Source: Bacillota bacterium (GTDB lineage: Bacteria > Bacillota > Clostridia > Lachnospirales > CAG-274). From it: a stretch of 50,603 bases of DNA. This document shows, piece by piece, positions 16,847 through 50,602 of the stretch. A program made the translations under genes and the position numbers. The stretch covers positions 1-50,603 of the forward strand of contig JAFUAF010000049.1 in NCBI GenBank assembly GCA_017460805.1, given 5' to 3'. The stretch's first letter is position 1. The number at the start of each line of letters is the position of its first letter. The notes below the pieces were generated by a model. That model worked only from the letters and a program-made list of their open reading frames with translations. It searched no databases and was not told where the DNA came from.

Positions 16847-17538
16847 TTTACATTCCCCTTTCTTAATGCGTAATACATCCAAAATACATTTTTTACTCTT
16901 GCAACATTGTAAATTTTTGCACGATGAAAAAATAAAAGAACGCAAATTCCTAAAAATACCGTAATAATTATACTCCATCTATTAAATATTTTATAATATA
17001 CAACACATATAAAATAAATAAAAAGATGTGATAATGAGCCGACAAACATTCCTCTTGAAAAGCCAAAAATAGATTGTGTTCTGTCATTTCGTATCGTTTT
17101 ACCCGTACCCTTTATATAATTATTACAGTAATCATACAAAAATCGAATTTCATCATGTGATAAATCCTTAAAATTAAAGGTCTTTATTGTTAAATCCTTT
17201 TTCAAAAATTTCAACAATTCTTTTCGCTCTGTATTGGTACATTTTTTGTCATTAAAGTAGCTCTCAAAAATATCTTCGCCAAACAGCTTTGTATAATCTT
17301 GTAAAAATCTTCCTAACTCATGTAATACAGTCCCAACATAATAGCCTAAAATAATAAATAAAAAAATAGTAAGCCATATATAGTTTTCAATCTTAATATT
17401 TATTATTTCAATAAACTCAAAAATATTTTTATCTGTAGTAATAAAATATGACATTATCCAAAGAACGATATTAATTGCACCAGTTCCAAAGATGCCCATA
17501 AAATTATACATTCCGATATGTTCAAAAGTAGAATCCAT
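16843..17538 (-). CDS. multi-pass membrane protein, unknown
   Basis: A 231-aa protein with about four membrane segments: around residues 10-33 and 52-72 near the N-terminus, and 165-185 and 190-207 near the C-terminus. A charged cytoplasmic-type loop (about 75-160) lies between the pairs and includes HELGRFLQDYTKLFGEDIFES. It does not match a family I can name. Its stop overlaps the start of the LRR-dockerin gene (ATGA), so the two are translationally coupled, and a role in export or anchoring of that protein is a reasonable guess. A ribosome site (AGGGGTGAT) supports the start. Confidence 0.75.
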   Translation of the reverse strand: MDSTFEHIGMYNFMGIFGTGAINIVLWIMSYFITTDKNIFEFIEIINIKIENYIWLTIFLFIILGYYVGTVLHELGRFLQDYTKLFGEDIFESYFNDKKCTNTERKELLKFLKKDLTIKTFNFKDLSHDEIRFLYDYCNNYIKGTGKTIRNDRTQSIFGFSRGMFVGSLSHLFIYFICVVYYKIFNRWSIIITVFLGICVLLFFHRAKIYNVARVKNVFWMYYALRKGNVK

Positions 17539-28736: not shown

Positions 28737-28770
28737 ATAAATATATAAATATCGGAAAGGCGGAGTGAAT

Positions 28771-31700: not shown

Positions 31701-31989
31701 TGCAATAAACGGCTCGGAAGAGGCCGAAACAACATTCGATGTTACGGATATGGATCCCGGCAGCCTTAAAATAGCAGCGTACGATTACGCATACAACTGC
31801 GAAAAATATTTGTATGGCGACATAAACGGCGACGGAACAATAAATGATATTGATGCTGCACTCTTGTTAAAGCATATAAGCGGTATTTTAACATTAACAC
31901 CCGAACAGTCAGCAAGAGCAGATGTTCACAAGGATGATAGTATTGATATGCTTGATGTTATAGCTATCCAAAATAACAAAACCGAATAA
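28771..31989 (+). CDS. secreted S8 subtilisin-like protease with PA insert and dockerin
   Basis: A 1,072-aa exported protease. The ATG at 28771 has GGCGGAG upstream; a GTG two codons earlier is less well placed. The signal is MKFKRMISGALALLLVVNTT, followed by an I9-type propeptide (about 30-130). The catalytic triad is D166 (AVIDGGFD), H237 (VHGTHVAG) and S562 (DGTSMAAP). A PA domain (GKIAVIDRGKPIIETAANLA) is inserted before the serine, as in C5a-peptidase/lactocepin types. Fn3-like domains follow. The last 60 residues are a dockerin: a clear first calcium loop (GDINGDGTINDIDAALLLK) and a degenerate second (DVHKDDSIDMLDVIAIQNN). It would cleave proteins at the cell surface while docked to a cohesin scaffold. 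Confidence 0.93.
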   Translation: MKFKRMISGALALLLVVNTTAFAAESTQNETVKFIVELKETSVLEEFESGNLTAFTADTAAEKKAERLMRTQSTVQNEIEENIDKDAQKGFNYTHVLNGFSMEGTAEDMAKIAELPEVKAVYPVQTYEAPPDVESDDITNCCSEMNIEYLRNNGISGQGQVIAVIDGGFDARHEMFSGDIEGAKYSKTDMANLIANNDLSCENGRSITANRVYVSEKIPFAFNYANKSADVNNGSVHGTHVAGIAAGNNGKDIDGTRLTGAAPDAQLLFMAVQEENKENLDDDAILAAFDDAAKLGADVVNCSFAYPFITESELHSKAVESLQKAGINLSVSAGNMGRGICKTPGDYNNYYYGTDAENIDYGSIGLPNFPATTTIAAAEAEIYRNIYNCMYVDGNEIAFQEQNPKYLFSEKFCDKEYEFVYCNYGTAEDTEDIDINGKIAVIDRGKPIIETAANLASKGAVGVVLINYDETVNINADPDYLNGLPYACISNSDRDKLLNAQNKHIRTGQKAEMDANPVKGMCLFTSWGNMRNMELKPEITAPGGEIYSSVPDDQYKNKDGTSMAAPHAAGSFALVRQAILNDKNKYGITDDTNIGSLAEKLLMSGGSIIYRDGIPASPRQQGAGMVNLESAVKTNVILSTDSELDNFKPKLSLGETGENFTLAFNAENISSEPVEYDNCRLVVITDDADEDGKITDMRSLSFTSDMPEKLTVNANSTQKISVNVTLDKNELNENLKVFKNGFYIDGFVILSSNNADIPELSLPFTGFYGGWDTQSPLDKGYYNDPLYNGNKLTTNYTDSKNAKTNAVLGTNVFWSKDIYGDTYDEFNSEEFAGISPNNDNYFDALGIEFMPARKIGSYGFTLYNYSDGSSEKIPLEEEKGDNLPKWYDIGHNFKLTDIEDGEYTVTITATNYGSDKKFESDPLKFYVDTQKPEITECELYEEDGKTLLKLGAKDDRHLMGFTVTGNLDGGEEDCLTLAINGSEEAETTFDVTDMDPGSLKIAAYDYAYNCEKYLYGDINGDGTINDIDAALLLKHISGILTLTPEQSARADVHKDDSIDMLDVIAIQNNKTE

Positions 31990-35610: not shown

Positions 35611-36210
35611 TTATGCAGGTATCTTATTTAACTCACGTTTTATGCGGTAGTATGTACTCGGACAGCAGCCTATCTCAAACATTGCTTCTTTTTGCGTTAT
35701 TTCCTTGTTTTTGACCTTTTCAAATATCGGGGCATATTTATTTACATCATAGGTCTGAGGCCTGCCGAAACGCACACCGCGCTCTTTCGCTGCCGCTATG
35801 CCCTCGGCCTGCCTTTGGCGTATATTGATACGCTCATTTTCGGCTACATAACTGAGAAGCTGAAGCACGATGTCCGAGATCAGCGTACCGATCAGGTCTT
35901 TATTTAAACTTGTGTTTAGAATCGGCATATCCAGCACGATTATATCCGCGCCCTTATCCTTTGTTATAAGCTGCCATTGCTTTATTATATCCTTATAGTT
36001 TCTTCCGAGACGGTCAATGCTTTTTATCACAATGCAGTCTCCTTTATGTATGCGCTTTAATAAACGCTTGTAATTCGGGCGGTTAAAGTCCTTTCCGCTT
36101 TGTTTGTCCGTCAGTATATTTTCGGGCAGTACGCCGTATTCTTTCAGTGCAATAAGCTGTCTGTCCGTGTTCTGTTCTCTTGTTGATACTCTTATGTAGC
36201 CAAAAATCAA
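35611..36210 (-). CDS. small serine recombinase (resolvase/invertase), copy 3
   Basis: A 199-aa protein related to the two at 22.7 and 24.5 kb, with nucleophile S9 in GYIRVSTREQNTDRQ, and IKSIDRLGR, LIGTLISDIVLQLLS and RQRQAEGIAAAKERG. The C-terminal helix-turn-helix is ITQKEAMFEIGCCPSTYYRI. The start is a TTG codon at 36210, with AAAGGATG upstream. Its leader (36211-36320) lacks the CCCGA/TCGGG palindrome of copies A to C, so it belongs to a different cassette type. It lies directly after the giant element protein and may be the resolution function of that element. Confidence 0.9.
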   Translation of the reverse strand: MIFGYIRVSTREQNTDRQLIALKEYGVLPENILTDKQSGKDFNRPNYKRLLKRIHKGDCIVIKSIDRLGRNYKDIIKQWQLITKDKGADIIVLDMPILNTSLNKDLIGTLISDIVLQLLSYVAENERINIRQRQAEGIAAAKERGVRFGRPQTYDVNKYAPIFEKVKNKEITQKEAMFEIGCCPSTYYRIKRELNKIPA

Positions 36211-36367: not shown

Positions 36368-39300
36368 TCAGCGGGAATATTTATCGCTTCTGCCGGGGCT
36401 CGATTTATCGTGTGAATGTTCGTCACTTCCGCTTGGCGGTGTATCTTCCCCGTCATCGGCAAATATCCTGTTCAATTCCTCCAGACGCTGTTCTTTTATT
36501 TTCAGTTCTTCAAGCTGAGGGAACGGCTTGTCAACCACTTTCTTTGCTTCTTCAAGTGCCGTTTCCGTTTCCGCAAGCCTTAGCTTATGTCTTTCAAGTT
36601 CTTCGGGCAGCTTTTTCAAGGCGTTTTCAATTCTTGTAATGTTGCCGAAAGCGTCAGCCCCCACTTTAAGTGTATGCGATACAGCACCCTTTAAAGTGAG
36701 TTCGTAGCTATTCTCCCTTGCGTTGAAAGTCACTGACATATCAAAGCCCTTGTATGTACCCACATCCTTGTTATGTTCGCCGAATTTAAGGCTTCGGCAG
36801 GCTTTCAGCAAGGCTTCCGCCGCTTCTTTCTTGTCGGAATAGGTAATGCCCGTTACCGTCATTTCCTTAAATTCTTCGGATTCGTGTGCCTGTACAAGTG
36901 CTATATCCTTTGCTATACCCTCGATCTGTGCTGTATGGAACTTTATCTTCTGCGGATATTCTTTTGCTATGTTGTTCTGCTGTTTACGCTTTGTTTCCTT
37001 ATATCCGCTGTATATCATGCGAAGTCTGCCGACCTCTATATCAAGATCCATTTTTTCTTTTATTCGCTCGTCACCCGATGCAATAGCCTTTATCTGTGCA
37101 TAGCTCAGTACCGCTTCATCCACATCTTCCGCACTTCTTGCGGGAGACTTGCTCGTCATTATCTGAGATATAAAGCGCTGTTTATTTTCAACAAGCTGGT
37201 AGAGATAACTGTCAAATGTATTCTTTGTAACATAGGTGAATATCTTGACTTTCTTATTCCTGTTTCCTCGTCTTATGATACGCCCCTCTCGCTGATTGAG
37301 ATCCGAAGGTCGCCACGGTGTATCAAGGTGATGCGCCGCTATAAGTCTTTCCTGTGCATTTGTACCCGTGCCCATTTTTGAAGTGGAACCGAGAAGTATT
37401 CGTATTTCTCCGCTGTTGACTTTTTCAAACATTTTCTGTTTTTGATCGTCAGTTTTACAGTCATGGATAAATGCTATTTCTTCTTTCGGCACACCCATAT
37501 TTACAAGTTTCTGTTTAATATCATCGTAAACATTAAACTCTCCGTCATAATGCGGCGTTGAAAGGTCGCAGAATATCATCTGCGTACTGCGGTCGGGTTT
37601 TGTTTCATCCCAGATATTGAATACATTGTTTATACACTGATTGACCTTGCTTTCAGTATCATCGGGCAGCAAGGGGTTGGCAAGCCGCTGATCGAGTGCC
37701 AGCTTGCGGCCTTCGTTTGTTATCTTCAACATATTGTCAATGGTGGGATCAACATGTCCCTGTCGTACTGCCTTTGCTCTTTCCGCAAGTGCATCTATCA
37801 TTTCTATCTGAAAATCACTTGCTTCGGTCGCTACGGTTATATATTCCGCTTCGGGTACGGGCAGTTTAAGCATATCGGGTGTTTGAATATCCGCCGTTTC
37901 CTTAAACAACTTCATAAGTTCGGGGATATTGAAGAACTTTGAAAATCTTGTTTTCATTCTGTAACCCTTGCCTTCCGGGGCAAGTTCAAGTGCCTGTGTG
38001 GTCGAACCAAAACTTGAAGCCCAAGCATCAAAGTTATCAAGGCCAAGTTCTTTCAGCTTTTCACGCTGCAAGAAAGTCTGCATAATATAAAGTTCCACCA
38101 TTGAATTGCTCAAAGGTGTTCCCGTTGCAAATATGCAACCTTTTGAATCTGTAAGTTCATCAAGGTATCTGCATTTCATAAATACATCCGATGCACGCTT
38201 TGAGGGATTGGAACTGTTTATACCCGCAACATTGGACATTTTTGTATTGAAATTGAGATTTTTGAACAGATGTGCTTCATCAATGTACATTCTGTCAACG
38301 CCCAGTTCTTCAAAAAAGACAACGGAATCTTTGTTTTTACCGTCATACAGCTTTTCAAGTCTGTCCTGCAATGCTTTCTTTTTGCTTTCAAGCTGCTTTA
38401 TACTGAAACCGTTGTCACCCTCGTTATCGCTCATTCTTTCGATAGCCGCAACAATATCGTTGATCTCGTCCTGCAAATATCTTTCCTGTCTTTCGGGCGA
38501 GATCGGTATTTTTTCAAGCTGATTATGGGATATAATAACAGCATCATACGAGCCTGTCGCTATTCGTGAACAGAAACGCTCTCTGTTGGCTTTTGAAAAA
38601 TCACCCTCTGCGGGCAAAAGAATATTTGCGTTTGGATAAAGTTTCATAAAATCACTTGCAACCTGCTTGACTATATGTTTCGGAACAACGATAAGGCTTT
38701 TGTGACAAAGTCCCAGACGCTTGCTTTCCATAGCAGAAGCTATCATCTGATAGGTCTTGCCTGCACCTACGCAATGTGCAAGCAGAGTGTTGCCGCCGTA
38801 TATCGTCCTTGCGATGCCGTTTAACTGGTGTTTGCCGAGTTTTATATCCGAGTTCATTCCAACAAGGTTAAGGTGACTTCCGTCATATTCTCTCGGTCTT
38901 ACCGAATTAAATTTTTCGTTGTAAATTTGGCAGATGTCCTGTGTCCTTTCATAATCATCAAACAGCCACTCCGCAAATGCCGCCTTTATTTCTTCCTGTT
39001 TCTGCTGTGCGAGCAGTGTTTCCTTTTCGTTGAGTACGCTCTTTTTCTTGCCGAATTCATCTTCAACAACATCCATTACCTTTACGGGTTTAAGATTAAG
39101 TGTATCCTCTAATATCTTGTAAGCATTTACACGGCTTGTACCGTAAGTTTGGCTTGCCTGCACCGTATAAGCGGCGTTATAATTGCTCTTATTGCTGATG
39201 CCGTATGTTGAAGTTTCCGCATCATAAGCAACGGTAACGGTCGAATTGTCTCCACCCCTGCTTGCAAATGGATTTCTGTCACTTTCTCTCCACACATAAT

Positions 39301-42300
39301 CAGATCTGTTGGAATGCGGCGTATCAAGAAGCTGATACATAAATTCCTCATAATAGTGAACAGGCACCCAAGTAGAACCAAGCTGTACGGTTATTTCTTC
39401 GGGTTTTAATTCTTCCGGCTGCACCGACTGGAGAAACTCTACATTTACGGCGTATTCCTCATTTTCAACTGCTTTTAATTTAGCTATTTCAAGTTTTTTA
39501 CGAACATTGCCCGATAAGTATTCATCGGCATTTTCATAATTGCCTGTTTCGGGGTTCTTGAAAATTACGCCCTTTAGATCTTCGACAATATCCTCAACGG
39601 TCTTTGAACATAACCGGGACATAAATTCAAGATCGACATGTGCCTTTTCGGATATGCTGACCGCAAGTGCTTCAACGGCAGTATCAACGCTTTCTATGGG
39701 GACATAATGCTCAATGGTACGCTTTGTGAATATATCCGCCTTGCTGATAAGTTCGCCCTTTTCATTGACATTTTCAAGGGATGCAAGCAGTTCGGCAGTA
39801 TCGTCAAGCCTGAATGCCGCACGGTTCAGCTTATTGGTTATAAGACCGTATTTATCGGTAAATTTGTCATACTCCGTATTCAGCTTTGACTGTAACTTAT
39901 GCAGTGTTTCATCGGAGCAGCCCTCACGCTGTGCAGTTATAAGTTCCTGCAATACACCGCTTAAATGCACAAGTGCCTTGACACGTTCCGCCTTTTTCCC
40001 GTCAAAATCCTGTTTTTCCATTATATCGTTGTCACGGAAATAAATCTCATCATCAATGACCGCATAGCAGAAATTACGGTAGTTTTCAACAATAATATCG
40101 TTTTCTTCCCGAACCGACATCAGATCTTCCGATATGTCATAGCTGTTTTGTCTGTATTCGCCCTGAATATTTTTGACGATATAGTCCAGATCTTCGGATA
40201 AACTTCTGTAATCACGGGGTTTGCAGGTCAAGTCAAAACCATATTGGCTTGAAACAACACCGAGGTCGCCCGCTATCATTTCGGGGTGTTCGGCAAAATA
40301 GCTGTTTATATAAATTTTGTTGCCGTAATCCACAGCTTTTTGAGTGTATAGATCCTCGTCGATCTCCTTGACTTTTACCCAACTCGGCACATTTTCATCT
40401 TTGCTTAAATCGAGAGGTTCTTCACGCTTCTGCAAAAAGATAATATCTGAAACAACTTTTGCATTGGCATTGGAAAACACATTGTTGGGAAGTCTAATAG
40501 CACCGATAAGCTCGGCTCTTTCCGCTAAATATCTTCTCACGGTATCATCGCGCTTATCAAGTGTACCCTTTGATGTGATAAAAGCAACTATGCCGCCGGG
40601 GTGAACTTTATCCAAAGCCTTTTTAAAGAAATAATCGTGTATAAGGTTTCCTCGTCTGAATTCCGTATCCGACAGCTTGTAATTGCCAAACGGAACATTG
40701 CCGACTGCCACATCAAAAACATTGCTTGTAAAACCTGTTTTTTCAAAGCCTTTTATCTGAATGTTGGAATTGGAATATAACTGCTTTGCAATGCGTCCGG
40801 ATACAGAATCCAGCTCAACACCGTAAAGTTTTGAATCTTCCATACTTTCGGGCAGCATACCGAAAAATGCACCCACACCCATAGACGGTTCAAGAATACG
40901 GCCACCGGCAAAGCCGAGATTTTCAAGGCCCTTGTATACGGTCTCTATAACTTCGGGCGGTGTGTAGTGCGAATTTAATACCGATGCCGATGCGGAAGCA
41001 TATTCATCCTCGGTCAGAAGTTCTTTTAATTCCTTGTATTCCTCTGTCCAGTTTTCACGAAAAGGCTCAAAAGCCATTGAAATGCCGCCCCAGCCGACAT
41101 ACTTTGCAAGAACTTCCTGCTGTTCGGGTGTGGCCTGTGCGCCGCTTTCTTCTAATTCCTTTAATAAACGGATAGCCGCAACATTGTTTTTGAAACGCTC
41201 TTTCGGACCCGCAACATTGAAGTTATAATCGGTTATCTTGTAATTCTGACCCTTGTTTGCAAAAGAAAAAGACCCCGTTTCTTCCTGCGGTATAGCACCG
41301 AGTTCGGAGTCTGTAAGATCATCAAAATATTCTATTGTTTCCCTTGTAGATTCTGTCTGCTGCACATATAAATCAAAAGCCTGTTCTACAATATCCTCAT
41401 CACCAAGAATATCATTAAATGCCTTTTTTATCTTGTTTTCTTTTATTTGGTCTCCCTGCCAGCCGTGCATACGGTTCTCATTAAATGCCTTGACTATATC
41501 GACAAGGTTATCCGTGCCGACAATATCTTCAAGTTTCTGCTTAAAATCAGCCATTGAATGGTTGGGAGTGTCGGGAATATCGGTAATTTCCATATTCCTT
41601 TCCTCCTTCACAGGCATGTGGTTTTCCCATTCTATCGCAGAAATACCGTAGAGAGTACCGTCCATTGAAGTTTCCAGTATGTCATTTGATCTCTCAACAT
41701 AATCGGCAGTATTGTTTCTGTGAAGCTCATACACGCTGAAATTGTCTATAAGCTCCTTTGCCTTATCGGAAGTTACGGGCAGTATGCCGTTCCAAGTATA
41801 GCCGTATTTATTTCTGTCCTCGATAGTTACAGACGGATCAGGCATATTTTTGAGTATTTCTTCGGAAAGAACATAGATTTCTCCGTCCTGTTCCTCTTTG
41901 GCAAGTTCTGTATTCAAGGACTTCTCCCATTCTTCCGCTTCTATGCCGTACATAAAGCTGTCAGATATTTCATCGGCAGTTTCCATCAAATGTTCTGTAT
42001 TATCATCACCAAGTTGATAAATGCTGTGATCGTGTTCAAACAGTTCTTTTGCTCTATCGGATGAAAGCGGCAGCATACCGTTCCAAGTATAGCCGTACTC
42101 ATTTCTGTCCCCGACCATCATTGTAGGATCGGGCATGTTGTTGAGTATAAAATCCGATAAGATATATTCTTCGTCTGCGGTGTTTTCTGTCGCGTCAAGA
42201 TAGTTTTTTAAATCTTCCGTATCAACGGTATATCTGATGTTTCTGTCCTGTAAGATAGTTTCCACAAAATCTGCGTTTTCAAAATCGACCTCAAGGGACT

Positions 42301-45300
42301 TATAAAGCTCCGACCACTTGACATCATAGCCGTTGTTTTCCAGATGTGCCTTTAACTCTGTTATCTGTTCGGCATCGGCTTCTATGTTTATCTTTACAAG
42401 AGGAAGTTCGTCCGAGGTTTCAATATTTTCCGCCGCATTTTCGGGTTCTTTTTCAACCTTCGGCGAATCAAGCTCAAATACTTCTTCTATAAGAACGGTA
42501 TAGCCTGCTTCACGCAGTTCTTTGCAGAAATCGTCTTTTGCAAAATCGGGGAAACCGCACATATCATCGTTATTTTTTCGGGTGAGTGTCAGACCGAGTG
42601 TTTCGGCGGCATTTCGGGCATTTATACCATAAAACTCCCAAAAGTCACCGACTTTACGCATTGTTATAGATCCTCTGTCCATGGGCTTGTCAATGCCGTT
42701 TATTTTCAGTATTTCCTCATTAAAAGCATCTTCAAGCGGAAATTCACCCTCAACCTGTTCGATCTTCTTTGTTTTCGTATTTAACACAGCAAATCCGAGA
42801 TAATCATCGTCAAGATATTCTTTGCCCGCCTTAACTGCCTCGCCAAGTGTGGCATATTCAAGTTTATCATCAATTCCTCCGTCAAGGCCTGCATTGGTTA
42901 TTACCTGATATATTTTCTTGAACTCTATGCCTTTGCTTTTCAGCACATCCGTTACGGTTTTTACTGCATCTTCAGCGTCCGAATTATAGGCATCAACTTC
43001 GTATGTGCCTAAATCATTGATAACACCGCATACTGGTATGCCGTTATGATATATCTCTGCAACAAGGTCATAGCCGCCGTTTGCAATTTTCCATTCTCCG
43101 TCGGGAGATTCAATTACAGTATCATCACCCGAAAAGAAACGGTCAACTATATCTTTCAGCCCCATCTGCTTTTCAACGAAAAATTCGGGTATGTCCGCAA
43201 AACCTATATCATCCACAAAGTGAGCTGTTTCGTTACCGTTTTCGTTTAAAACAACAACATCGCTGACGGAAAGTGAATGACCTGTGAAATCATCTGGTCT
43301 TTCCTTGTTAAATATATAAAACAGCTTTTCCAGCTTATCATCTGTTGTATAATTATCCTTGCTTTCAAGTTTTCCCTCATACACAAGGTCATACCGGCTC
43401 ACATCGGGTTCAATGCCCCTGTTGTAAAGCGAACCATAAGGCTCAAAGCGTATACCTCTGTTTTCGGGTGTGTTTTTCATCTGGTATATCTTATATTCTG
43501 TCGTGCTGTTTTCGATAAAATCTTCGGGATATACGGGCTCAAAGGGTTTACCCGCAAAAGTAAGGGGATATTCTTCTTCATAACCCGATAAGGTGGAGTC
43601 CATAAGGTTTGTAAGTTCGATAAAATCATCCGTATCAAAGGCTTCTCCATCATCCAAAATTTCTTCCTGCGATTCCGTCCATACATTTTCGCTTGAAAGC
43701 AGACTGTATATCGCATTGTTTCTTGTAAGATATAAAAGCGAATCGTCATCATTGTTGTAATTGCCGAATTTATCTATGTTTTCGGTCTTGCCGAGAAAGA
43801 TGCCGTCATGCTTATCCATAATGACAGACATACCTTTATATATGCTTTTCTCCGTCATACTGAGTTCAACAACATCCATATCTTCTGGATAAAAAGGCTT
43901 TATAAGGCGGCTTTCAAAAGTTTCCTTAAGGTCAATAAGCACTGTGCTTTTTATCTCGGTAAGTTCTTCAAAATCTTCTCTTGTAAATCTGCCGTCTGCT
44001 ATATATTTTTCGGGAGCGGGTTCAATGCCGCTGTTCTTTGATAAAAGCGTAAACATATTTTTGTTATCCGATATATGAATGATCGAATCATCGCTGTTAT
44101 CATATCTGCCCGCATCATCAATATTTTTGGTTTCACCCATAAACACCATATCGTTATATATCATTACGGAATATCCGTCATATACGCTGTAATTCAAAGA
44201 AGAAGGCTCAATAAAGTTTTCGTCTTTTTCCTGTACAATTTCTTCTTCAACAGGTTCAAACGGCTCACCGTCAAAGGTAGGCAGAGCAAGCTCTTTGAAT
44301 CGTGATAAAACACCGTTTCGGAGGGCTTCAAATTCTATAAAGTCCTCTTTTGTGAAAACTTCACCGTCCATAAGTTCGGCTTGTGTTTCTGTCCAACTGC
44401 AATGCTGCCTTAACAGCTTATAGATATTACTGTTGGAAGATACAAAAACAAGGGAATCATCGCTGTTGTCATAACCCTCGCCGGGGGTGTAGTTTTCTCT
44501 TTTGCCGAGATAGACATTATCGTCTATATCCTGCATAACCATCATACCTTTGTAATTGCTGTATACTGCATCATAGACACGCTGCATACTGTTTTCGGGT
44601 TCATCGGTGCTTACAATGGGTTCGCCCGCAAATGTTGGTATTTTTAAAACCTCATATTCTGCCGAAAGTTCTTTATGTAGCTCCTTAAACTCATCTACAT
44701 CGGCATAATTGATAATTTCTTCATCAACCATCTCATCAAGTGTTTTGTCATAATCGCAGTTAAATGAAAAAAGCCCGAACATATTATCAAATTCGGACAG
44801 CTCATATAGAGAATTATCACTGTTATCATATACACCATAGAAACCGTGGCTTGAATAGTTTTCCTCTTTACCGAGATAAACGCTGCCGCGAGGATCCATC
44901 ATTACTATCATATCCTTATATATGCTTTTGTTATAATCATATATAAGTTCTTTATCCTTTCCGAGTTTTGAAGCATCGGGAATATCTGCATCCTTTATCT
45001 CGGAGATTTTCATTTCGCTGTTAAAAATATAATCAAGTGCATCATCAACGGAAGAACCGAAATTTTGAACATAAACATTTTTTGTTATGTTGCCGTTCTT
45101 TATCATATCGGCACGCATTTGGAAGTTACCATCATCACCGCTTAATATACAACGGTTTACAAGATTGTTTTCCCTTGCGTTCTCGATAACGGAAGTATTG
45201 TCATCATCCTCAAAATAAATAACTTCCCCGATATTTAAGGCAAGTTTTAAATCGTCACGGCTATATGTTTCGGGTTCTATCTTCCGGCCTGCAAAAGACG

Positions 45301-48300
45301 GCGCATCTATACGCTGGTATTTTTTTGAAAGTTCCCTGACAAGTGAGGAAAAACTGACAAAATCTTCTTCCGAAAATTTGAATTTCTCAACAGCTTCTTC
45401 ACGACTTTCAGACCATACCGCACCTTTTTTAAATAAATCATACAGTTTTGACCCGTCCGAAAGAACCTCAAGTGAATTATCGGAATTGTCATACACACCG
45501 TAGAAACCCTCTGTTTTATAGTTTTCGGTTTTTCCGAGATAGAGCGTACCCTCAATATCATCACACATAATAAACATATCTTTGTATATGCTCGGTGCGT
45601 GAATATCAATTCTTACCGCATCTTTTCTTTCGGAGAAGTCTGGCATAATTCTTTCGCTTATACCGCTTACTATGAGATCATTATCTTCTATGTATTCCAT
45701 AGCTTCTTTTACGGAAGTACCCAAGTTTTGTATATTTATTTCTTCGCCCGCCCTTGAACCATCGGGAAATGTTCCGCGTAACTGATAATAACCGTTATCG
45801 CCTATCGCAACACGGCGGTTTTTATATAAAATCTTACCGTCCTCTCGCTTTTTATCATCATCTTTGATATTTACAACACGGTTTGTTCTCAATGCTTCGA
45901 TTATAGAATCTCTTGAATAATTAACGGTTTTATCAAAGAATACCTCACGCAGAAATTTGCCGTATCTGTCAACTATGACATGCGGACATTCCTCGGAAAA
46001 ACCCTCATTGTTGTTTTCCATTTCAAAAACAGTCTCACCGTTCTCTACAAAATGGTCAACAACGCTCCAAAGTCCGCTTACGCCGTAGTCATAATTGTGA
46101 AGAAGTATATCTTCCGTATATTCATTTATAAGATCTTCTTCAATATCTTCATCGGATATATCCGAAATATCCTCTGCCTGTTCGGGCTTTTCAAATTCGC
46201 CGTATTCCGCAAAGTTCACAAGTGCCGCACTGGTATCATTATCAAGCACATCAAAAAGAGGGATACCGTTTTCGTACTCATTTTCGGCCTGCATATAAAA
46301 CAGATCGCCCAGCCTTACAGTTTCGGAGTTTGAATATGCTTCAAGCAGCTTAAAGAAGTGATCGGTATCTGCCGCCATATCGTTTGCAGTATTTATGCTG
46401 TCCTTTGTTATTATCGCACTCACAAGCTCCGAGGAACTTTTTCTGTATATAAGTTTCAGTTCATCATCATTTCTGCCGCGGAATATTCTATGGGAAGTAT
46501 CCTTTTCCGTACTGTCTGCCGCATCGGTTACTGGTTCGCTTTCGGAAACATCTCCTACCTCGATCGGTTCTTCGTAAATCTCCGTTTTGGGTTCATCATA
46601 TTCATTTCCGAGATATTTCCCATCTCTCATAAGTTTATGCTTATTTATGTTTTGTGTCATTTCAAAAGCGGTGTTTCCGAGCTTTTCAACATAAGACACA
46701 CCGACGTCACCGGGATAAATGCCTTCAAAAGATGTAACGGTATATTCCTGACCTTTGTATAAATACCTGTCACCGAGCTTTATTTCCGTATTTTCCTTTT
46801 CGGGTTCGGGAATGACAAAAGAATCATCTTTGCCTACAAATATACCGTCATTTATAAGGCGTTCTTTCTTTATCGGCATGGTTTCATAAAATTCCTTGCC
46901 GCCAAGTGTGCGCTCAAACCTAACCGTAGCTAAAGGACTGCTGTCCGCTGCAATGACTGTTCCGACTTTTCTGTTTATAAAAAACACATCGCCCGGTTCT
47001 ATGTTACCGGTGGTCTTTTCTGTATCATATCCTTTTTCTTTGGAAGTTTCATTGTAATAATCTTCCCACATTTCATCGGATATATATGTTAAATCACCAA
47101 AAGACAGGTTTGCCAGTCTTACATTAAAATCCGTGTCGTTATCGAATATTTCTGCTTTCACAAGAATATCATCAACATATATTCTTATTTCACGGTCGAT
47201 AAGATCTGCATCGGCCTGAACGGTAAGTTCCTCGCCCGTGGGACTGTCAACCGTGGTATGGGCAAGTCCAATTTCTTTTAAATCGCTGAAATCGTGTGTT
47301 TCCGTTGTATCTTCCGTTGAAAATTCTTTGTCGATATATTCCGAGATCAATTCTTTTGCGGTCTTGTATGGATCAATTTTTTCTGCCTTATCCTTTTCGT
47401 TTTCGGCAAGCATTTCTTCGCCGATCTTCTCTGCGGTTGCAAGGTCAACTATGTTTTCGGCATTAAGCCTTTCTGCTATTTTTATACAAATTTCCTTATC
47501 CTCAACATAAGAAATAGGATATTCACGGTTGCCCGAATAGTCTATGCTGTCCTTATCTCTTAATCTGAACACGGAGTAAAGCATTTCTCCGCCTACGGGG
47601 TTTGCCGTGTAGCTCCATTTGCTGTATTTTTGCTGTACTGCTTCCTTTCGTACATTTTCAATTTCCTCTGTATCAAGTATACCGGCCACTTTCATACCGC
47701 TGTATTTTATGAAATACAAAGCATCATCGGCAAATACGCCCATTCCCTTTGATACAAGATCGGGACTATTGTTGCGGTAGCCGTTTAAATTTATAATGCC
47801 GTTTTCGTTCTTTGAAACATAACGGTTTTTTAATACCTGTCCATCTGTGTCCTTGAGTAATACAGCCTTGCCCGCATTTATCGCATCAACGATCTCTTTT
47901 TCGGAACAATTACCGATCATTATTTGCGAACGCAGTCTGTCGAGAACTTTCTCACCCATATTTATTGCAGTCAGATCATCGGTTATATTTTCATTATTCA
48001 GCTTATTTACAAGTTCGATGCAGGCTTCCTTGTCCTCGATATGTGTAACAACAAAATTATAAACTTCATCATTATCATCTGCATTTTCGTTTGAAATGTT
48101 ATAAATAGAGTAATGTTTTTCGCCGCTTTTGGGATCTGCCAATGTTTCGGTATAATGCCACATATCGGGCTTGTCGGCCTGCTGTGCTTTTTCCACAGCT
48201 TTTTCGTCAAGGTATTTATCCGTTTCTATAAGATATGCCGCAAGGTCGCCCATATCGTATACTCTTTTGGGATTGAAATCTATCTTCAAGCCCTCAAAAG

Positions 48301-50602
48301 TTTCGTTCTCATCGTTTAAGATATTGAAGAAATGATCCTCACGAACATCGCCGTTATAGGCAACCAAGACATCAATATCAGAGCCCTTATCCTCAATGCC
48401 GCGGCTTCTGCTGCCAGTTACCATAACATCGACAACATCAAGGTCAAGTTCATAGGCATCTACCAGAGTGTCTACGATATTTTTGAGGTGAAATTCAAGA
48501 CTTTCAAGAGAGGTCCTTTCTATCGGGTGGAATTTCTCGGCGGTCTTTGCCTTAAATTCATCGACTTTCGATTTTGCAAGTTCTTCGTACTTTTTATCCT
48601 CGGAATTTACAAGAAGTTCATTCCAGTCCTTGACCTCTGTTCCTATCTGTTCAAGCTGCTTGTACCTGTAATCATCTGTTATATCCAAAGGTAAAGTGCC
48701 GTATTTTTCTGCCATTTTCTCTTTGAAGTTTCTGCCGGCTTCGTCATTATCCGCGGCGATATAGGCATTTTCATAAGGAATCTTATATCTGTCAAGCATA
48801 GTGTTGACTACCTTATCCTTTAAACCGCCCATAGATACAAGCAATGCCGCATCTTTCGGGTTTAAGGCAAAATAACTTATCGCATCTATCGCCGATTCAA
48901 AGAAAATAGCTTTTTTCGGCTTTTCCTTGCCCGTTGTGCTGAAAGCAAAACCCGAACCGTCACGCTCGGTTATCCTCTTGAATTTTGCACCCGATGTTCC
49001 CGTCAGTTCTGCACCCGATACTTTTCCGTCTGCGCCCCTTATATTAAATACCGCATTGCCCCGCTCGTCTTGTGAGATCGCACCGAGTTCTATCATTTTT
49101 CGCACAAGACCTTCGCTTATACCTCTTGTTTTCGTTAGATATTCAACTACCTTTTCGGCATCATCTACAAGGGAATATAAATATACCTTATGCGGCTTTT
49201 CTTCTTCGGGAGCTTTTCCCTTTACCACGGCAGGGCTCGGAGATATTTCGTTATTACCTTTGAACTGCGAATATCCGTTGAAATTAAGCAAGTCACCGAC
49301 TGCCGTTTTGAAGTCCATACCGAGATAATTTATTGCAAAGTTAAGGGCATTGCCGTACATCTGCTGACTGTTCCAGTAGAATTTACTGCCGTTTATACGC
49401 ATACTGTCGTGTTCTTCAAGTGTATATTCATTTGAACCGACACGCTTTGTCTTTATGCCTTTGCTTGCAAGATAGTCAACGATATTTGTTTCCTTTGCAA
49501 TTCTTATCTGTTCATCATTGAAAAAGCCGCGAAGTTCCTTAACGACTGCATCGGCAATACTATCGGCTCTTTCTTTATCTTCGCCGCTGACTGTAAGAGT
49601 CGTGGTATCACCGTTTATCTTTCCGCTGTACTTTATTCCGTTTTCGGCAAGTTTATCGGCAATAGCAAGTGCTGTTTCAGTATCTTTCTTTATATAAGAT
49701 TTATTCTTTATAAAACGATAGGGGATAGTGCCGATTATATCCTCGGAATCAGAAAAGGCAGAAGATCGCTCTCCTGCCTTTTCGTTTATGCGTATATCAG
49801 CTCGTTGTATATTATCTCGTGGACTCTGTTCTTTATTCCGCTGCGTCTCGCCGCCCATTCCATGTGGTCTTTCTTCTTCAGTTCGGCGTTCACTCCCTCC
49901 GCTTCGCTCATCTGCTCCAGAAGTGTCTCCGACATTTCTTCCGCTTTCCTGTCCACCGATACCAGATGCGCCCACAGACCGTCCATCACCAGTTCTTCGT
50001 ACATCACGGGTCTGTTCTCTTTCAGATAATTCAAGCGGCGTTTCCCCCACATCCCCATTTCGTATTCCTCCTGCGGTTCGGGTGCTATTTGTGGTATGTA
50101 TGTCATCGTTTCCGTATCGAGCAGATATGTCATTCCCGCTTCTTCCTTCGTTTCGGGCAGCCATGCTTGTGCCTGTTCGCTGTATACTTCCGTGATTCCA
50201 TCTGTTATCCTTGTTTTCAAGTCTTTCTTCATAATGCTGTTCCTCCTTGTTTAAAGTCTTTTCATAGGCTTTTACCTGTGCTTCGATTTCACGCAGTATG
50301 GTGCTTGAAATGCCGTTCACCGCCTTACCGAGCATAATTATAAGGCTTCTTGTGTTGAAATCGCCTATATACTTATGATCTTCCGCATTGAAATCGGGGT
50401 CAAGACCGCATCTTTTTTCGATAGCGTATTTTGCACTTGCTTTGACAATTTCTCTGAACCTTAAAGAGATATTGTCACGGTCAAGTCCGTCAATCAGGCT
50501 GTCTTTGCGGTTTTGAAAAATATCGTTGATATATTTGTCGGCTGTATTTTTGAGTATCTCCTCAATTCGTGCCGAGATATATCCGTCAAGACTGCCTTTG
50601 CC
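36368..50602 (-). CDS. giant polyvalent protein of a conjugative element: primase-like, TOPRIM, nucleotidyltransferase, adenine methylase, SNF2 helicase (5' end outside window)
   Basis: An open frame of 4,744 codons that still lacks a start at the right edge; the ATG at 50335 is internal. In order, by nucleotide: a conserved N-terminal helical region; a low-complexity Gly/Arg/Ser linker (50230-49790); a DnaG/DUF3991-like segment (49530-49270); TOPRIM (48925-48690; FFESAIDAIS, AADNDEAG); a nucleotidyltransferase (48530-48190; VTGSRSRG, GSDIDVLV); five unnamed repeats (45600-43530); two YodL/LPD-like units (42170-41640; YGYTWNG); an N6-adenine methylase (41250-40440; RILEPSMGVGAFF, VGNVPFG); and an SNF2-type helicase (38860-37100; GAGKT, DEAH, GTPLSNS, QREGRIIRRG). 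Polyvalent proteins of this kind protect conjugative or phage DNA on entry to a new host. The TOPRIM-nucleotidyltransferase pair is unusual. No frame break is seen. Confidence 0.9.
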   Translation of the reverse strand, partial: GKGSLDGYISARIEEILKNTADKYINDIFQNRKDSLIDGLDRDNISLRFREIVKASAKYAIEKRCGLDPDFNAEDHKYIGDFNTRSLIIMLGKAVNGISSTILREIEAQVKAYEKTLNKEEQHYEERLENKDNRWNHGSIQRTGTSMAARNEGRSGNDISARYGNDDIHTTNSTRTAGGIRNGDVGETPLELSEREQTRDVRRTGDGRSVGASGIGGQESGRNVGDTSGADERSGGSERRTEEERPHGMGGETQRNKEQSPRDNIQRADIRINEKAGERSSAFSDSEDIIGTIPYRFIKNKSYIKKDTETALAIADKLAENGIKYSGKINGDTTTLTVSGEDKERADSIADAVVKELRGFFNDEQIRIAKETNIVDYLASKGIKTKRVGSNEYTLEEHDSMRINGSKFYWNSQQMYGNALNFAINYLGMDFKTAVGDLLNFNGYSQFKGNNEISPSPAVVKGKAPEEEKPHKVYLYSLVDDAEKVVEYLTKTRGISEGLVRKMIELGAISQDERGNAVFNIRGADGKVSGAELTGTSGAKFKRITERDGSGFAFSTTGKEKPKKAIFFESAIDAISYFALNPKDAALLVSMGGLKDKVVNTMLDRYKIPYENAYIAADNDEAGRNFKEKMAEKYGTLPLDITDDYRYKQLEQIGTEVKDWNELLVNSEDKKYEELAKSKVDEFKAKTAEKFHPIERTSLESLEFHLKNIVDTLVDAYELDLDVVDVMVTGSRSRGIEDKGSDIDVLVAYNGDVREDHFFNILNDENETFEGLKIDFNPKRVYDMGDLAAYLIETDKYLDEKAVEKAQQADKPDMWHYTETLADPKSGEKHYSIYNISNENADDNDEVYNFVVTHIEDKEACIELVNKLNNENITDDLTAINMGEKVLDRLRSQIMIGNCSEKEIVDAINAGKAVLLKDTDGQVLKNRYVSKNENGIINLNGYRNNSPDLVSKGMGVFADDALYFIKYSGMKVAGILDTEEIENVRKEAVQQKYSKWSYTANPVGGEMLYSVFRLRDKDSIDYSGNREYPISYVEDKEICIKIAERLNAENIVDLATAEKIGEEMLAENEKDKAEKIDPYKTAKELISEYIDKEFSTEDTTETHDFSDLKEIGLAHTTVDSPTGEELTVQADADLIDREIRIYVDDILVKAEIFDNDTDFNVRLANLSFGDLTYISDEMWEDYYNETSKEKGYDTEKTTGNIEPGDVFFINRKVGTVIAADSSPLATVRFERTLGGKEFYETMPIKKERLINDGIFVGKDDSFVIPEPEKENTEIKLGDRYLYKGQEYTVTSFEGIYPGDVGVSYVEKLGNTAFEMTQNINKHKLMRDGKYLGNEYDEPKTEIYEEPIEVGDVSESEPVTDAADSTEKDTSHRIFRGRNDDELKLIYRKSSSELVSAIITKDSINTANDMAADTDHFFKLLEAYSNSETVRLGDLFYMQAENEYENGIPLFDVLDNDTSAALVNFAEYGEFEKPEQAEDISDISDEDIEEDLINEYTEDILLHNYDYGVSGLWSVVDHFVENGETVFEMENNNEGFSEECPHVIVDRYGKFLREVFFDKTVNYSRDSIIEALRTNRVVNIKDDDKKREDGKILYKNRRVAIGDNGYYQLRGTFPDGSRAGEEINIQNLGTSVKEAMEYIEDNDLIVSGISERIMPDFSERKDAVRIDIHAPSIYKDMFIMCDDIEGTLYLGKTENYKTEGFYGVYDNSDNSLEVLSDGSKLYDLFKKGAVWSESREEAVEKFKFSEEDFVSFSSLVRELSKKYQRIDAPSFAGRKIEPETYSRDDLKLALNIGEVIYFEDDDNTSVIENARENNLVNRCILSGDDGNFQMRADMIKNGNITKNVYVQNFGSSVDDALDYIFNSEMKISEIKDADIPDASKLGKDKELIYDYNKSIYKDMIVMMDPRGSVYLGKEENYSSHGFYGVYDNSDNSLYELSEFDNMFGLFSFNCDYDKTLDEMVDEEIINYADVDEFKELHKELSAEYEVLKIPTFAGEPIVSTDEPENSMQRVYDAVYSNYKGMMVMQDIDDNVYLGKRENYTPGEGYDNSDDSLVFVSSNSNIYKLLRQHCSWTETQAELMDGEVFTKEDFIEFEALRNGVLSRFKELALPTFDGEPFEPVEEEIVQEKDENFIEPSSLNYSVYDGYSVMIYNDMVFMGETKNIDDAGRYDNSDDSIIHISDNKNMFTLLSKNSGIEPAPEKYIADGRFTREDFEELTEIKSTVLIDLKETFESRLIKPFYPEDMDVVELSMTEKSIYKGMSVIMDKHDGIFLGKTENIDKFGNYNNDDDSLLYLTRNNAIYSLLSSENVWTESQEEILDDGEAFDTDDFIELTNLMDSTLSGYEEEYPLTFAGKPFEPVYPEDFIENSTTEYKIYQMKNTPENRGIRFEPYGSLYNRGIEPDVSRYDLVYEGKLESKDNYTTDDKLEKLFYIFNKERPDDFTGHSLSVSDVVVLNENGNETAHFVDDIGFADIPEFFVEKQMGLKDIVDRFFSGDDTVIESPDGEWKIANGGYDLVAEIYHNGIPVCGVINDLGTYEVDAYNSDAEDAVKTVTDVLKSKGIEFKKIYQVITNAGLDGGIDDKLEYATLGEAVKAGKEYLDDDYLGFAVLNTKTKKIEQVEGEFPLEDAFNEEILKINGIDKPMDRGSITMRKVGDFWEFYGINARNAAETLGLTLTRKNNDDMCGFPDFAKDDFCKELREAGYTVLIEEVFELDSPKVEKEPENAAENIETSDELPLVKINIEADAEQITELKAHLENNGYDVKWSELYKSLEVDFENADFVETILQDRNIRYTVDTEDLKNYLDATENTADEEYILSDFILNNMPDPTMMVGDRNEYGYTWNGMLPLSSDRAKELFEHDHSIYQLGDDNTEHLMETADEISDSFMYGIEAEEWEKSLNTELAKEEQDGEIYVLSEEILKNMPDPSVTIEDRNKYGYTWNGILPVTSDKAKELIDNFSVYELHRNNTADYVERSNDILETSMDGTLYGISAIEWENHMPVKEERNMEITDIPDTPNHSMADFKQKLEDIVGTDNLVDIVKAFNENRMHGWQGDQIKENKIKKAFNDILGDEDIVEQAFDLYVQQTESTRETIEYFDDLTDSELGAIPQEETGSFSFANKGQNYKITDYNFNVAGPKERFKNNVAAIRLLKELEESGAQATPEQQEVLAKYVGWGGISMAFEPFRENWTEEYKELKELLTEDEYASASASVLNSHYTPPEVIETVYKGLENLGFAGGRILEPSMGVGAFFGMLPESMEDSKLYGVELDSVSGRIAKQLYSNSNIQIKGFEKTGFTSNVFDVAVGNVPFGNYKLSDTEFRRGNLIHDYFFKKALDKVHPGGIVAFITSKGTLDKRDDTVRRYLAERAELIGAIRLPNNVFSNANAKVVSDIIFLQKREEPLDLSKDENVPSWVKVKEIDEDLYTQKAVDYGNKIYINSYFAEHPEMIAGDLGVVSSQYGFDLTCKPRDYRSLSEDLDYIVKNIQGEYRQNSYDISEDLMSVREENDIIVENYRNFCYAVIDDEIYFRDNDIMEKQDFDGKKAERVKALVHLSGVLQELITAQREGCSDETLHKLQSKLNTEYDKFTDKYGLITNKLNRAAFRLDDTAELLASLENVNEKGELISKADIFTKRTIEHYVPIESVDTAVEALAVSISEKAHVDLEFMSRLCSKTVEDIVEDLKGVIFKNPETGNYENADEYLSGNVRKKLEIAKLKAVENEEYAVNVEFLQSVQPEELKPEEITVQLGSTWVPVHYYEEFMYQLLDTPHSNRSDYVWRESDRNPFASRGGDNSTVTVAYDAETSTYGISNKSNYNAAYTVQASQTYGTSRVNAYKILEDTLNLKPVKVMDVVEDEFGKKKSVLNEKETLLAQQKQEEIKAAFAEWLFDDYERTQDICQIYNEKFNSVRPREYDGSHLNLVGMNSDIKLGKHQLNGIARTIYGGNTLLAHCVGAGKTYQMIASAMESKRLGLCHKSLIVVPKHIVKQVASDFMKLYPNANILLPAEGDFSKANRERFCSRIATGSYDAVIISHNQLEKIPISPERQERYLQDEINDIVAAIERMSDNEGDNGFSIKQLESKKKALQDRLEKLYDGKNKDSVVFFEELGVDRMYIDEAHLFKNLNFNTKMSNVAGINSSNPSKRASDVFMKCRYLDELTDSKGCIFATGTPLSNSMVELYIMQTFLQREKLKELGLDNFDAWASSFGSTTQALELAPEGKGYRMKTRFSKFFNIPELMKLFKETADIQTPDMLKLPVPEAEYITVATEASDFQIEMIDALAERAKAVRQGHVDPTIDNMLKITNEGRKLALDQRLANPLLPDDTESKVNQCINNVFNIWDETKPDRSTQMIFCDLSTPHYDGEFNVYDDIKQKLVNMGVPKEEIAFIHDCKTDDQKQKMFEKVNSGEIRILLGSTSKMGTGTNAQERLIAAHHLDTPWRPSDLNQREGRIIRRGNRNKKVKIFTYVTKNTFDSYLYQLVENKQRFISQIMTSKSPARSAEDVDEAVLSYAQIKAIASGDERIKEKMDLDIEVGRLRMIYSGYKETKRKQQNNIAKEYPQKIKFHTAQIEGIAKDIALVQAHESEEFKEMTVTGITYSDKKEAAEALLKACRSLKFGEHNKDVGTYKGFDMSVTFNARENSYELTLKGAVSHTLKVGADAFGNITRIENALKKLPEELERHKLRLAETETALEEAKKVVDKPFPQLEELKIKEQRLEELNRIFADDGEDTPPSGSDEHSHDKSSPGRSDKYSR
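43530..45600 (-). repeat. five protein-level repeats (YDNSDDSL modules) in the giant gene
   Basis: Five modules start near 45595, 44930, 44560, 44190 and 43845. Each has 'YKGM.V..D.....LGK.EN', then 'YDNSDDSL', then a helical part ending in 'TFAGKPFEP'. Unit length is 115-123 residues, except that a second module (VQNFGSSVDDALDYI-like) is inserted between units 1 and 2 and precedes unit 1. The copies are diverged at the protein level, so the array is old. Confidence 0.85.
49786..50232 (-). CDS. tnpV: TnpV-family protein, nested out of frame in the giant gene
   Basis: A 148-aa frame on the same strand as the giant gene but shifted by one base. The ATG at 50232 has a perfect Shine-Dalgarno AAGGAGG nine bases upstream. 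The sequence has the TnpV family course: YIPQIAPEPQEEYEMGMWG, then KRRLNYLKENRPVMYEELV, DGLWAHLVSVDRKAEEMSE, MEWAARRSGIKNRVHEIIY and the ending NELIYA. A second possible start at residue 34 (MTYLLDTETM) also has a purine-rich lead. Over the same bases the giant frame reads only a Gly/Arg/Ser/Thr-rich linker, so TnpV looks like the constrained frame. TnpV is encoded by Tn4451-type elements and has no settled function. A decayed relative lies at 1157-1305. Confidence 0.75.
   Translation of the reverse strand: MKKDLKTRITDGITEVYSEQAQAWLPETKEEAGMTYLLDTETMTYIPQIAPEPQEEYEMGMWGKRRLNYLKENRPVMYEELVMDGLWAHLVSVDRKAEEMSETLLEQMSEAEGVNAELKKKDHMEWAARRSGIKNRVHEIIYNELIYA

Follow-up and report, generated by a model that had tools for sequence, protein, structure and literature searches.

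Does a tnpV gene that lies entirely within a far larger gene on the same strand form a true overprinted pair with it, so that the same bases encode two proteins? It is easy to write off long same-strand nesting in a cellular genome as annotation noise, and gene callers that forbid overlaps may lose either TnpV or the giant gene around it. Here, stand-alone relatives serve as natural controls for more than 100 divergent loci, so that selection can be read codon by codon in both frames. The nested loci also provide a direct route to testing TnpV, a common yet unexplained mobile-element protein, and suggest that a large multidomain protein can afford an overlap by siting it in a disordered linker.

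The nested gene and the giant

The window, which is the whole 50,603-base contig (C25), holds a relaxase (1417-3003), a large serine recombinase (7882-9531) and a resolvase (35611-36210). The tnpV gene (49786..50232, reverse strand) is an ORF of 148 codons encoding 148 amino acids. It is wholly contained, out of frame, in the open frame of a polyvalent-type giant gene (36368..50602, reverse strand; 4744 codons), the 5' end of which is lost at the contig end; position 1 of the TnpV codons is position 2 of the giant codons. The encoded protein scores 106.1 bits against the TnpV family PF14198 (curated cut-off 27), and AAGGAGG (50242..50248, reverse strand) stands 9 nt 5' of the ATG. The 447-bp same-strand overlap, the TnpV identity and the separate Shine-Dalgarno sequence claimed in an earlier note on this DNA are therefore all confirmed in the window. 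In the TnpV phase of the giant, open runs average 17 codons; the one here reaches 154 and the next longest 101, which exceeds what chance would give. With the TnpV protein of the window held fixed, no giant-frame stop is seen where 2.7 are expected, and 2.6% of 500 synonymous shuffles are stop-free; with the giant protein fixed, no TnpV-frame stop is seen where 3.7 are expected, and none of 500 shuffles is stop-free.

All of the giant's domains lie on the reverse strand. The end of a conserved N-terminal domain, termed UP (50267..50593; 113.9 bits, profile positions 140-248 of 249), precedes the nested tnpV and is followed by a predicted disordered linker (49685..50209; pLDDT <50) that almost equals the stretch shared with tnpV. 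Beyond the linker are DUF3991 (48932..49144; 52 bits, cut-off 24.5), Toprim_2 (48611..48898; 39.8 bits, cut-off 22.1), the nucleotidyltransferase NTP_transf_2 (48278..48451; 27 bits, cut-off 21), YodL (43181..43495; 98.1 bits, cut-off 24), MutS domain I (MutS_I; 42476..42670; 40 bits, cut-off 20.6) and SNF2-related plus Helicase_C domains (37265..38794; 34.7 and 33.2 bits, above their cut-offs). Eco57I falls below its cut-off (22.9 versus 25.3 bits). ArdcN is matched below its cut-off (19.3 versus 22.6 bits) in one of six UP domains scanned, with no match in the other five, and the N-terminus of the window giant is cut off. The giant thus unites a number of different conflict-related domains in a single chain, as polyvalent proteins do.

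The AlphaFold model of TnpV is a confident helical fold (mean pLDDT 90.4, pTM 0.62), and a structure search with it gave no convincing fold match in the PDB. In the model of the giant fragment (window:48899-50602), residues 132-306 have pLDDT <50, mostly near 28, and residues 133-306 form no helix or strand, from a shallow alignment of 14 rows. Because this model is poor overall (mean pLDDT 47.9) and is also low in stretches after the overlap, the case for linker disorder comes mainly from composition. Over the same bases, TnpV is thus predicted to be compact and helical and the giant to be disordered.

Recurrence and selection across relatives

A sample of 119 related giants was chosen by the UP domain before the overlap, not by the overlap itself, and a locus was called nested only where no stop interrupted the giant frame over tnpV. 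A complete nested tnpV is present in 104 of the 119, in one phase and at the same place, just after the N-terminal domain, in every case. The nested loci span six families and 39 genera (by taxon codes); in other orders of the class nesting is found at 24 of 26 loci, and it also occurs in Monoglobus and Cohnella plasmid records. Distances between UP domains correlate with those between TnpVs (r 0.88), which indicates that TnpV and the N-terminal domain are inherited together. Judged from these sequences, the arrangement is widely conserved and not a unique fusion, a point that the earlier note had missed.

Some loci depart from the pattern. L151, in the main giant group, lacks TnpV; L252 has its giant frame broken within an intact tnpV; and in Monoglobus an in-frame stop interrupts the giant close to the N terminus. 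A related subfamily (L030, L031, L036, L083, L085 and L086) shares a related N-terminal domain and an adjoining tnpV gene with the nested giants, but here tnpV lies directly upstream of the giant instead of within it, and these giants have another linker, in which the TnpV-phase frame is full of stops. The earlier note had named two arrangements that would speak against overprinting. The former, a TnpV frame filled with stops beside a conserved linker, was sought in the 119 giants and not found, the linker of L151 having given way to unrelated repeats instead of being conserved; nor did any of the 119 hold a recognisable but broken TnpV inside an open-frame giant. The latter, a stop between the halves of the giant, does exist in L041, where TnpV is broken as well; no other giant of the 119 combines a downstream tnpV with a closed giant frame. 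Overprinting of tnpV in the giant gene, the central proposal of that note, is otherwise borne out in the window and at the related loci.

Over the nested loci, synonymous shuffles predict 328 TnpV-frame stops with the giant protein fixed, and none is seen; they likewise predict 397 giant-frame stops against none seen, a difference that arises partly by construction because the nested call demanded an open giant frame. The count among the UP-picked giants and the cysteine and aromatic contexts are evidence free of this construction. At TnpV third positions, T is found in none of 1069 giant-stop contexts at nested loci versus 45.9% of 1204 in stand-alone genes, and in 1% of 114 versus 75% of 330 contexts that would give Cys in the giant. 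It is also rarer at nested than at stand-alone loci where it would give Tyr (34 versus 59%), Phe (37 versus 59%) or Trp (18 versus 33%), whereas harmless contexts exhibit no avoidance (Leu, 73 versus 64%; Pro-to-Ser, 54 versus 53%). The same pattern is seen in sets thinned to <60% identity (41 and 29 loci). Third-base choice in TnpV thus guards the giant against stops, cysteines and aromatics. Correspondingly, Phe, Tyr, Trp and Cys make up 2.6% of the linker versus 8.3% expected, being depleted in 104 of 104 loci, and 16 linker cysteines are found against 210 expected. The linker is rich in Gly, Arg, Ser, Asp and Glu over the 104 nested loci, in keeping with the linker composition that the earlier note described for the window; together with the low-confidence model, this supports the proposed use of the stretch as a linker with a disordered-type composition.

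In 33 independent pairs the TnpV-frame pN/pS is 0.33. TnpV-frame pS is 0.305, versus 0.447 in the flanking domain, and dS is lower in the overlap in 29 of the 33 pairs, in three of which the flank is saturated. At equal protein divergence, pS is slightly lower in nested than in stand-alone TnpV (0.376 versus 0.437; 0.569 versus 0.641), but no lower in the closest divergence class (0.202 versus 0.199). The giant-frame pN/pS within the overlap is 1.38, so there is little conservation of the exact linker sequence, and what is kept is an open frame and a composition. These sequence comparisons indicate purifying selection in both frames, with the giant constrained in openness and composition and not in exact sequence.

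A Shine-Dalgarno match of at least 5 nt precedes 96 of the 104 nested ATGs, against 30 expected, and this properly spaced signal and start codon suggest independent initiation of TnpV. The background rate of such matches is 4.3% of 1478 internal ATGs, or 13% and at most 22% when ATGs are chosen equally. The null model alone already yields 30 of 104.

Competing explanations

Since nesting is found in the window and in 104 of 119 giants, and since selection has left traces in both frames, the two genes are most likely an overprinted pair of long standing: TnpV would be started at an internal Shine-Dalgarno sequence and its gene read through as the flexible linker of the giant. Because nesting recurs at more than 100 related places, one DNA stretch likely codes for both a compact protein and a floppy linker. 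Translation of the giant alone, with the TnpV frame a passenger held open by the giant's composition, is highly improbable: the linker composition may itself deplete stops in other frames, and two antisense frames are likewise open there, but the lack of TnpV-frame stops with the giant protein fixed, the lower pN/pS in the TnpV frame, the stand-alone relatives matching the TnpV family and the recurrent Shine-Dalgarno match all argue against it. The reverse possibility, that TnpV alone is translated through the overlap and the giant is really two genes (an N-terminal protein and a downstream polyvalent protein) with an incidental open frame, is unlikely. The linker sequence is poorly conserved, and the incomplete PLSDB tables for Monoglobus and Cohnella list a TnpV gene and no giant CDS in the stretch. 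However, L041 alone among the UP-picked giants has a closed frame with a downstream tnpV, avoidance of T is seen in contexts that would yield Cys or aromatics but not in harmless ones, and of 84 stand-alone TnpVs the nine that share 60% identity or more with a nested one each have 4-9 giant-frame stops.

A frameshift at the end of the N-terminal domain, which would yield an N-domain-TnpV fusion besides the giant, could explain why at some loci (for example L129) the open TnpV frame reaches back tens of codons from its ATG and overlaps the end of that domain; in the window it is open for just six codons, and this together with the spaced Shine-Dalgarno and ATG at most loci makes a frameshift very unlikely. 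A recent local insertion of a Tn4451-type element, or its tnpV, into the window giant is scarcely credible. Although tnpV is known from such elements, and in ICEs of Streptococcus suis the snf2 genes are insertion targets of tnpV-carrying elements (passages of PMC9815147), phase and place are identical in all complete nested loci, with 24 more from other orders, and TnpV is inherited with the preceding domain.

In such an overprinted pair, ribosomes would initiate inside the giant gene at the Shine-Dalgarno sequence of tnpV and would also pass through tnpV in the giant frame to produce the disordered linker, so that a single mRNA may give both proteins. The linker might give the DNA-binding-like N-terminal domain freedom to move separately from the enzymatic portion. 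TnpV has been postulated to act in Tn4451 excision. This old postulate, and the location of some stand-alone relatives downstream of a large serine recombinase gene, suggest that TnpV may help the element's recombinase; given the lack of a convincing PDB match, its role is read from context and from the postulate. An origin of the giant by read-through of tnpV, proposed in the earlier note, stays a conjecture: nested and stand-alone states interconverted several times on an unrooted tree, and a codon-usage test for the older frame favours neither. We tentatively raise the possibility, itself doubtful, of an ancient class-wide gene-within-linker module of bacterial mobile elements, in which the disordered linker of polyvalent giants carries the overprinted gene of a folded recombination helper, TnpV, with the dose of TnpV coupled to giant translation, the stand-alone tnpV of resistance transposons such as Tn4451 being escapees.

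Comparison with known systems

A separate tnpV ORF is described for the mobilisable elements Tn4451/Tn4453 and for those of Tn6104 type (passages of PMC3158075). A Tn4451-type element combines tnpV with a TnpX-type large serine recombinase and a Mob gene in a small unit. The window protein belongs to the same family, and, as in those elements, a large serine recombinase ORF precedes tnpV in some stand-alone relatives: the ORF immediately 5' of tnpV encodes Recombinase, zinc-ribbon and DUF4368 domains in L069, and zinc-ribbon and DUF4368 domains in L231. The window tnpV, in contrast, lies wholly within another coding sequence, about 40 kb from the large serine recombinase. YodL, MutS-I, SWI2/SNF2, ArdC-N and Pol-beta NTase domains have been described in polyvalent proteins of conjugative elements (passages of Iyer et al. 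2017, PMC5512222), and a term search of the main text of that article returned no occurrence of TnpV, overlap or linker. The window giant is likewise multidomain, with YodL, MutS-I, SNF2/helicase, Toprim and NTase domains. Among overprinted viral genes, the polymerase spacer of hepatitis B virus is paired with the surface gene. The bases of this spacer in a large multidomain protein also encode a second protein in another frame (abstract of PMC9093120; passages of PMC8227390), and the nested loci resemble it in this respect. They differ in that the hepatitis B pair is viral, whereas the present pairs likely belong to bacterial mobile elements and recur across a class, and in that the inner protein here, TnpV, has free-standing relatives.

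The giant gene and its nested tnpV

The window, 50,603 bases long, spans an entire contig. Its giant gene is an open frame of 4744 codons on the minus strand, running from 36368 to the contig end, where its 5′ end is cut. A Pfam scan assigned DUF3991, Toprim, nucleotidyltransferase, YodL, MutS-I and SNF2/helicase domains to its product. Within it, in a different reading frame of the same strand, lies a tnpV gene of 148 residues (49786–50232), with AAGGAGG 9 nt upstream of its ATG. The next longest open runs of the giant in this out-of-frame phase are 45307–45609 (101 codons) and 43477–43752 (98 codons), both on the minus strand. Two antisense ORFs, 49728–50195 (155 amino acids) and 49819–50337 (172 amino acids), both on the plus strand, also cover the tnpV spot, so that four of the six frames are open there; they are probably a by-product of stop depletion. 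A resolvase-type ORF (35611–36210, minus strand) lies just after the giant, and the contig further encodes a relaxase (1417–3003, minus), a large serine recombinase (7882–9531, minus), a 2025-residue leucine-rich-repeat protein with a dockerin domain (10901–16978, minus) and a subtilase with a dockerin domain (28765–31989, plus).

The predicted structure of the window TnpV is helical (mean pLDDT 90). The model of the giant shows confident helices ahead of the overlap and neither helix nor strand in residues 133–306 (approximately the tnpV stretch; pLDDT mostly near 28), although this model is poor overall (mean pLDDT 47.9, 14 rows) and its later stretches are low too.

Recurrence of the nested arrangement

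The TnpV family (PF14198) is present in 4 of 6 genomes from the genus, 34 of 48 from the family and 151 of 295 from the order. The conserved N-terminal domain of the giant just before the nest (UP), searched as alignment A2, is present in 27 of 48 family and 132 of 295 order genomes (E of 1e-6 or better) and in 77 of 293 class genomes (E of 1e-20 or better). Giants were chosen for comparison by UP and not by the overlap, and the UP matches fetched were a part, mostly top-scoring. A complete nested tnpV was found in 104 of the 119 UP giants fetched and classified, where a locus counts as `nested' only when its giant frame is open; 14 lack one, and the remaining giant, L101, was left out as its tnpV is cut by a contig end. 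One place was listed twice (L031 and L112), giving 118 places behind the 119 giants, and the 104 nested loci have 103 distinct tnpV ends (those of L129 and L132 agree). The count of all TnpV loci, 189, comprises 103 nested, 84 stand-alone and two ambiguous (L236 and L041); eight of its nested loci carry a `noUP' tag set by a distance threshold, of which seven places do show UP and the eighth, L007, had been removed from the UP set as a duplicate by UP start.

The phase is identical in all 104 nested loci, which span six families and 39 genera (by codes), and the third frame averages 17 stops. The genome of the window itself holds five TnpV matches: the window, L001, L003 and L004 show the same-phase nesting, whereas L005 runs into a contig end and contains stops. 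Elsewhere in the class, 24 of 26 loci belonging to other orders show same-phase nesting (L274, the same place as L160, is outside this set); the others are L252, in which the giant frame stops within an intact tnpV, and L268, which runs into a contig end. Closure of the giant frame inside an intact tnpV (L252) or soon past it (L253 and L146) likely marks decaying giants. Nesting also occurs in a Monoglobus pectinilyticus record, whose giant has an in-frame stop close to the N-terminus, and on a Cohnella herbarum plasmid, the latter in Bacilli. For these two records (L244 and L245) the PLSDB gene tables give a TnpV gene but, in the stretch retrieved, no CDS for the giant that overlaps it; one partner of such a pair may be dropped by gene callers. 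Profile searches with alignment A1 returned two loci only from genome contigs and none from viral contigs, a protein search gave six matches, one of them the query itself, and a sequence search of the PDB gave none.

Several giants depart from the arrangement. In L151 (G181:C116), a main-group giant with UP, the linker, the stretch that elsewhere shares bases with tnpV, is replaced by acidic EDA/TKEP-like repeats without TnpV. Both frames are broken in L041, the only one of the 119 UP giants with a closed giant frame and a downstream tnpV. The giants of a related subfamily, whose linker frames are full of stops, either follow closely on a tnpV gene or show none; tnpV is directly upstream and not nested in L030, L031, L036, L083, L085 and L086.

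Constraint on the two frames

With the giant protein held fixed, shuffling over the 104 loci predicts 328 stops in the TnpV frame, and none is seen; no recognisable broken TnpV was found in open giants among the 119. Over 33 independent pairs, pN/pS in the overlap is 0.33 for the TnpV frame and 1.38 for the giant frame, and differences per codon position (0.121, 0.097 and 0.219) match the TnpV frame. A perfect Shine–Dalgarno match of at least 5 nt precedes the best ATG in 96 of 104 nested loci, compared with 30 when giant codons are redrawn; the frequency at internal ATGs of UP is 4.3% (n = 1478), or 13% (at most 22%) with an equal number of ATGs to choose from.

In the converse synonymous shuffle, which holds the TnpV protein constant, 397 giant-frame stops are expected across the 104 loci against none seen, a result that is partly by construction, given how nested loci are defined. 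The choice between C and T at the third base of TnpV codons, compared between nested and stand-alone genes, is free of this bias. Where T would create a giant stop, it occurs in 0 of 1069 nested codons versus 46% of 1204 stand-alone codons, and where it would create Cys in 1% of 114 versus 75% of 330. The corresponding values are 34 versus 59% for Tyr, 37 versus 59% for Phe and 18 versus 33% for Trp, whereas T is not avoided at harmless sites (Leu-for-Leu, 73 versus 64%; Pro-for-Ser, 54 versus 53%). The nested loci are related to each other; a repeat thinned to below 60% identity (41 nested, 29 stand-alone) gave 0 versus 52% for stops, 2 versus 84% for Cys, 32 versus 65% for aromatics and 63 versus 57% for Ser/Leu. 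Phe, Tyr, Trp and Cys together make up 2.6% of the linker against 8.3% expected, with a reduction in all 104 loci. These contrasts and the linker composition suggest that translation of the giant passes through the overlap and that its protein is kept hydrophilic there. A chance ORF, a recent fusion and a silent passenger frame were rejected on the basis of the shuffle, third-base and comparative tests.

In the same 33 pairs, TnpV has a lower pS (0.305) than the flanking domain (0.447), and dS lies below the flank in 29 pairs, in three of which the flank is saturated. When stand-alone TnpV of matching protein divergence is the reference, pS is lower by a small margin, and in the closest class not at all, which points to weak constraint on the exact linker sequence.

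History and proposed working

Of the 84 stand-alone TnpVs, nine share 60% identity or more with a nested one, and each of these has 4–9 giant-frame stops. One of the nine, L014 (90% identity), seems to be truncated and is possibly a remnant. UP and TnpV distances correlate (r = 0.88). A single nested clade was rejected on the unrooted TnpV tree, which needs eight switches between nested and stand-alone states, or at least five counting starred branches only. Because phase and place never vary, we infer one nesting followed by escapes, on unrooted data.

The giant mRNA would be read twice: ribosomes that begin at the giant start would continue across the linker, and those that begin at the nested Shine–Dalgarno sequence would make TnpV. 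The linker would tether the N-terminal ArdC-N-like domain to the enzymatic part of the giant; the ArdC-N likeness of UP is sub-threshold and was seen in one of six scanned. In the open-access literature covered on TnpV, polyvalent proteins and overlapping genes, no description of tnpV nested in a giant was found. In L069 and L231, stand-alone loci near a nested clade, tnpV follows an ORF with large-serine-recombinase domains (zinc-ribbon and DUF4368 in both, Recombinase also in L069). TnpV has been postulated to take part in Tn4451 excision, by homology with lambda Xis (PMC3158075). By analogy with this postulate, and given the preceding recombinase ORFs, TnpV may act in excision or with a recombinase. 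The domain make-up of the giant, in turn, matches that of the polyvalent proteins as described in PMC5512222.
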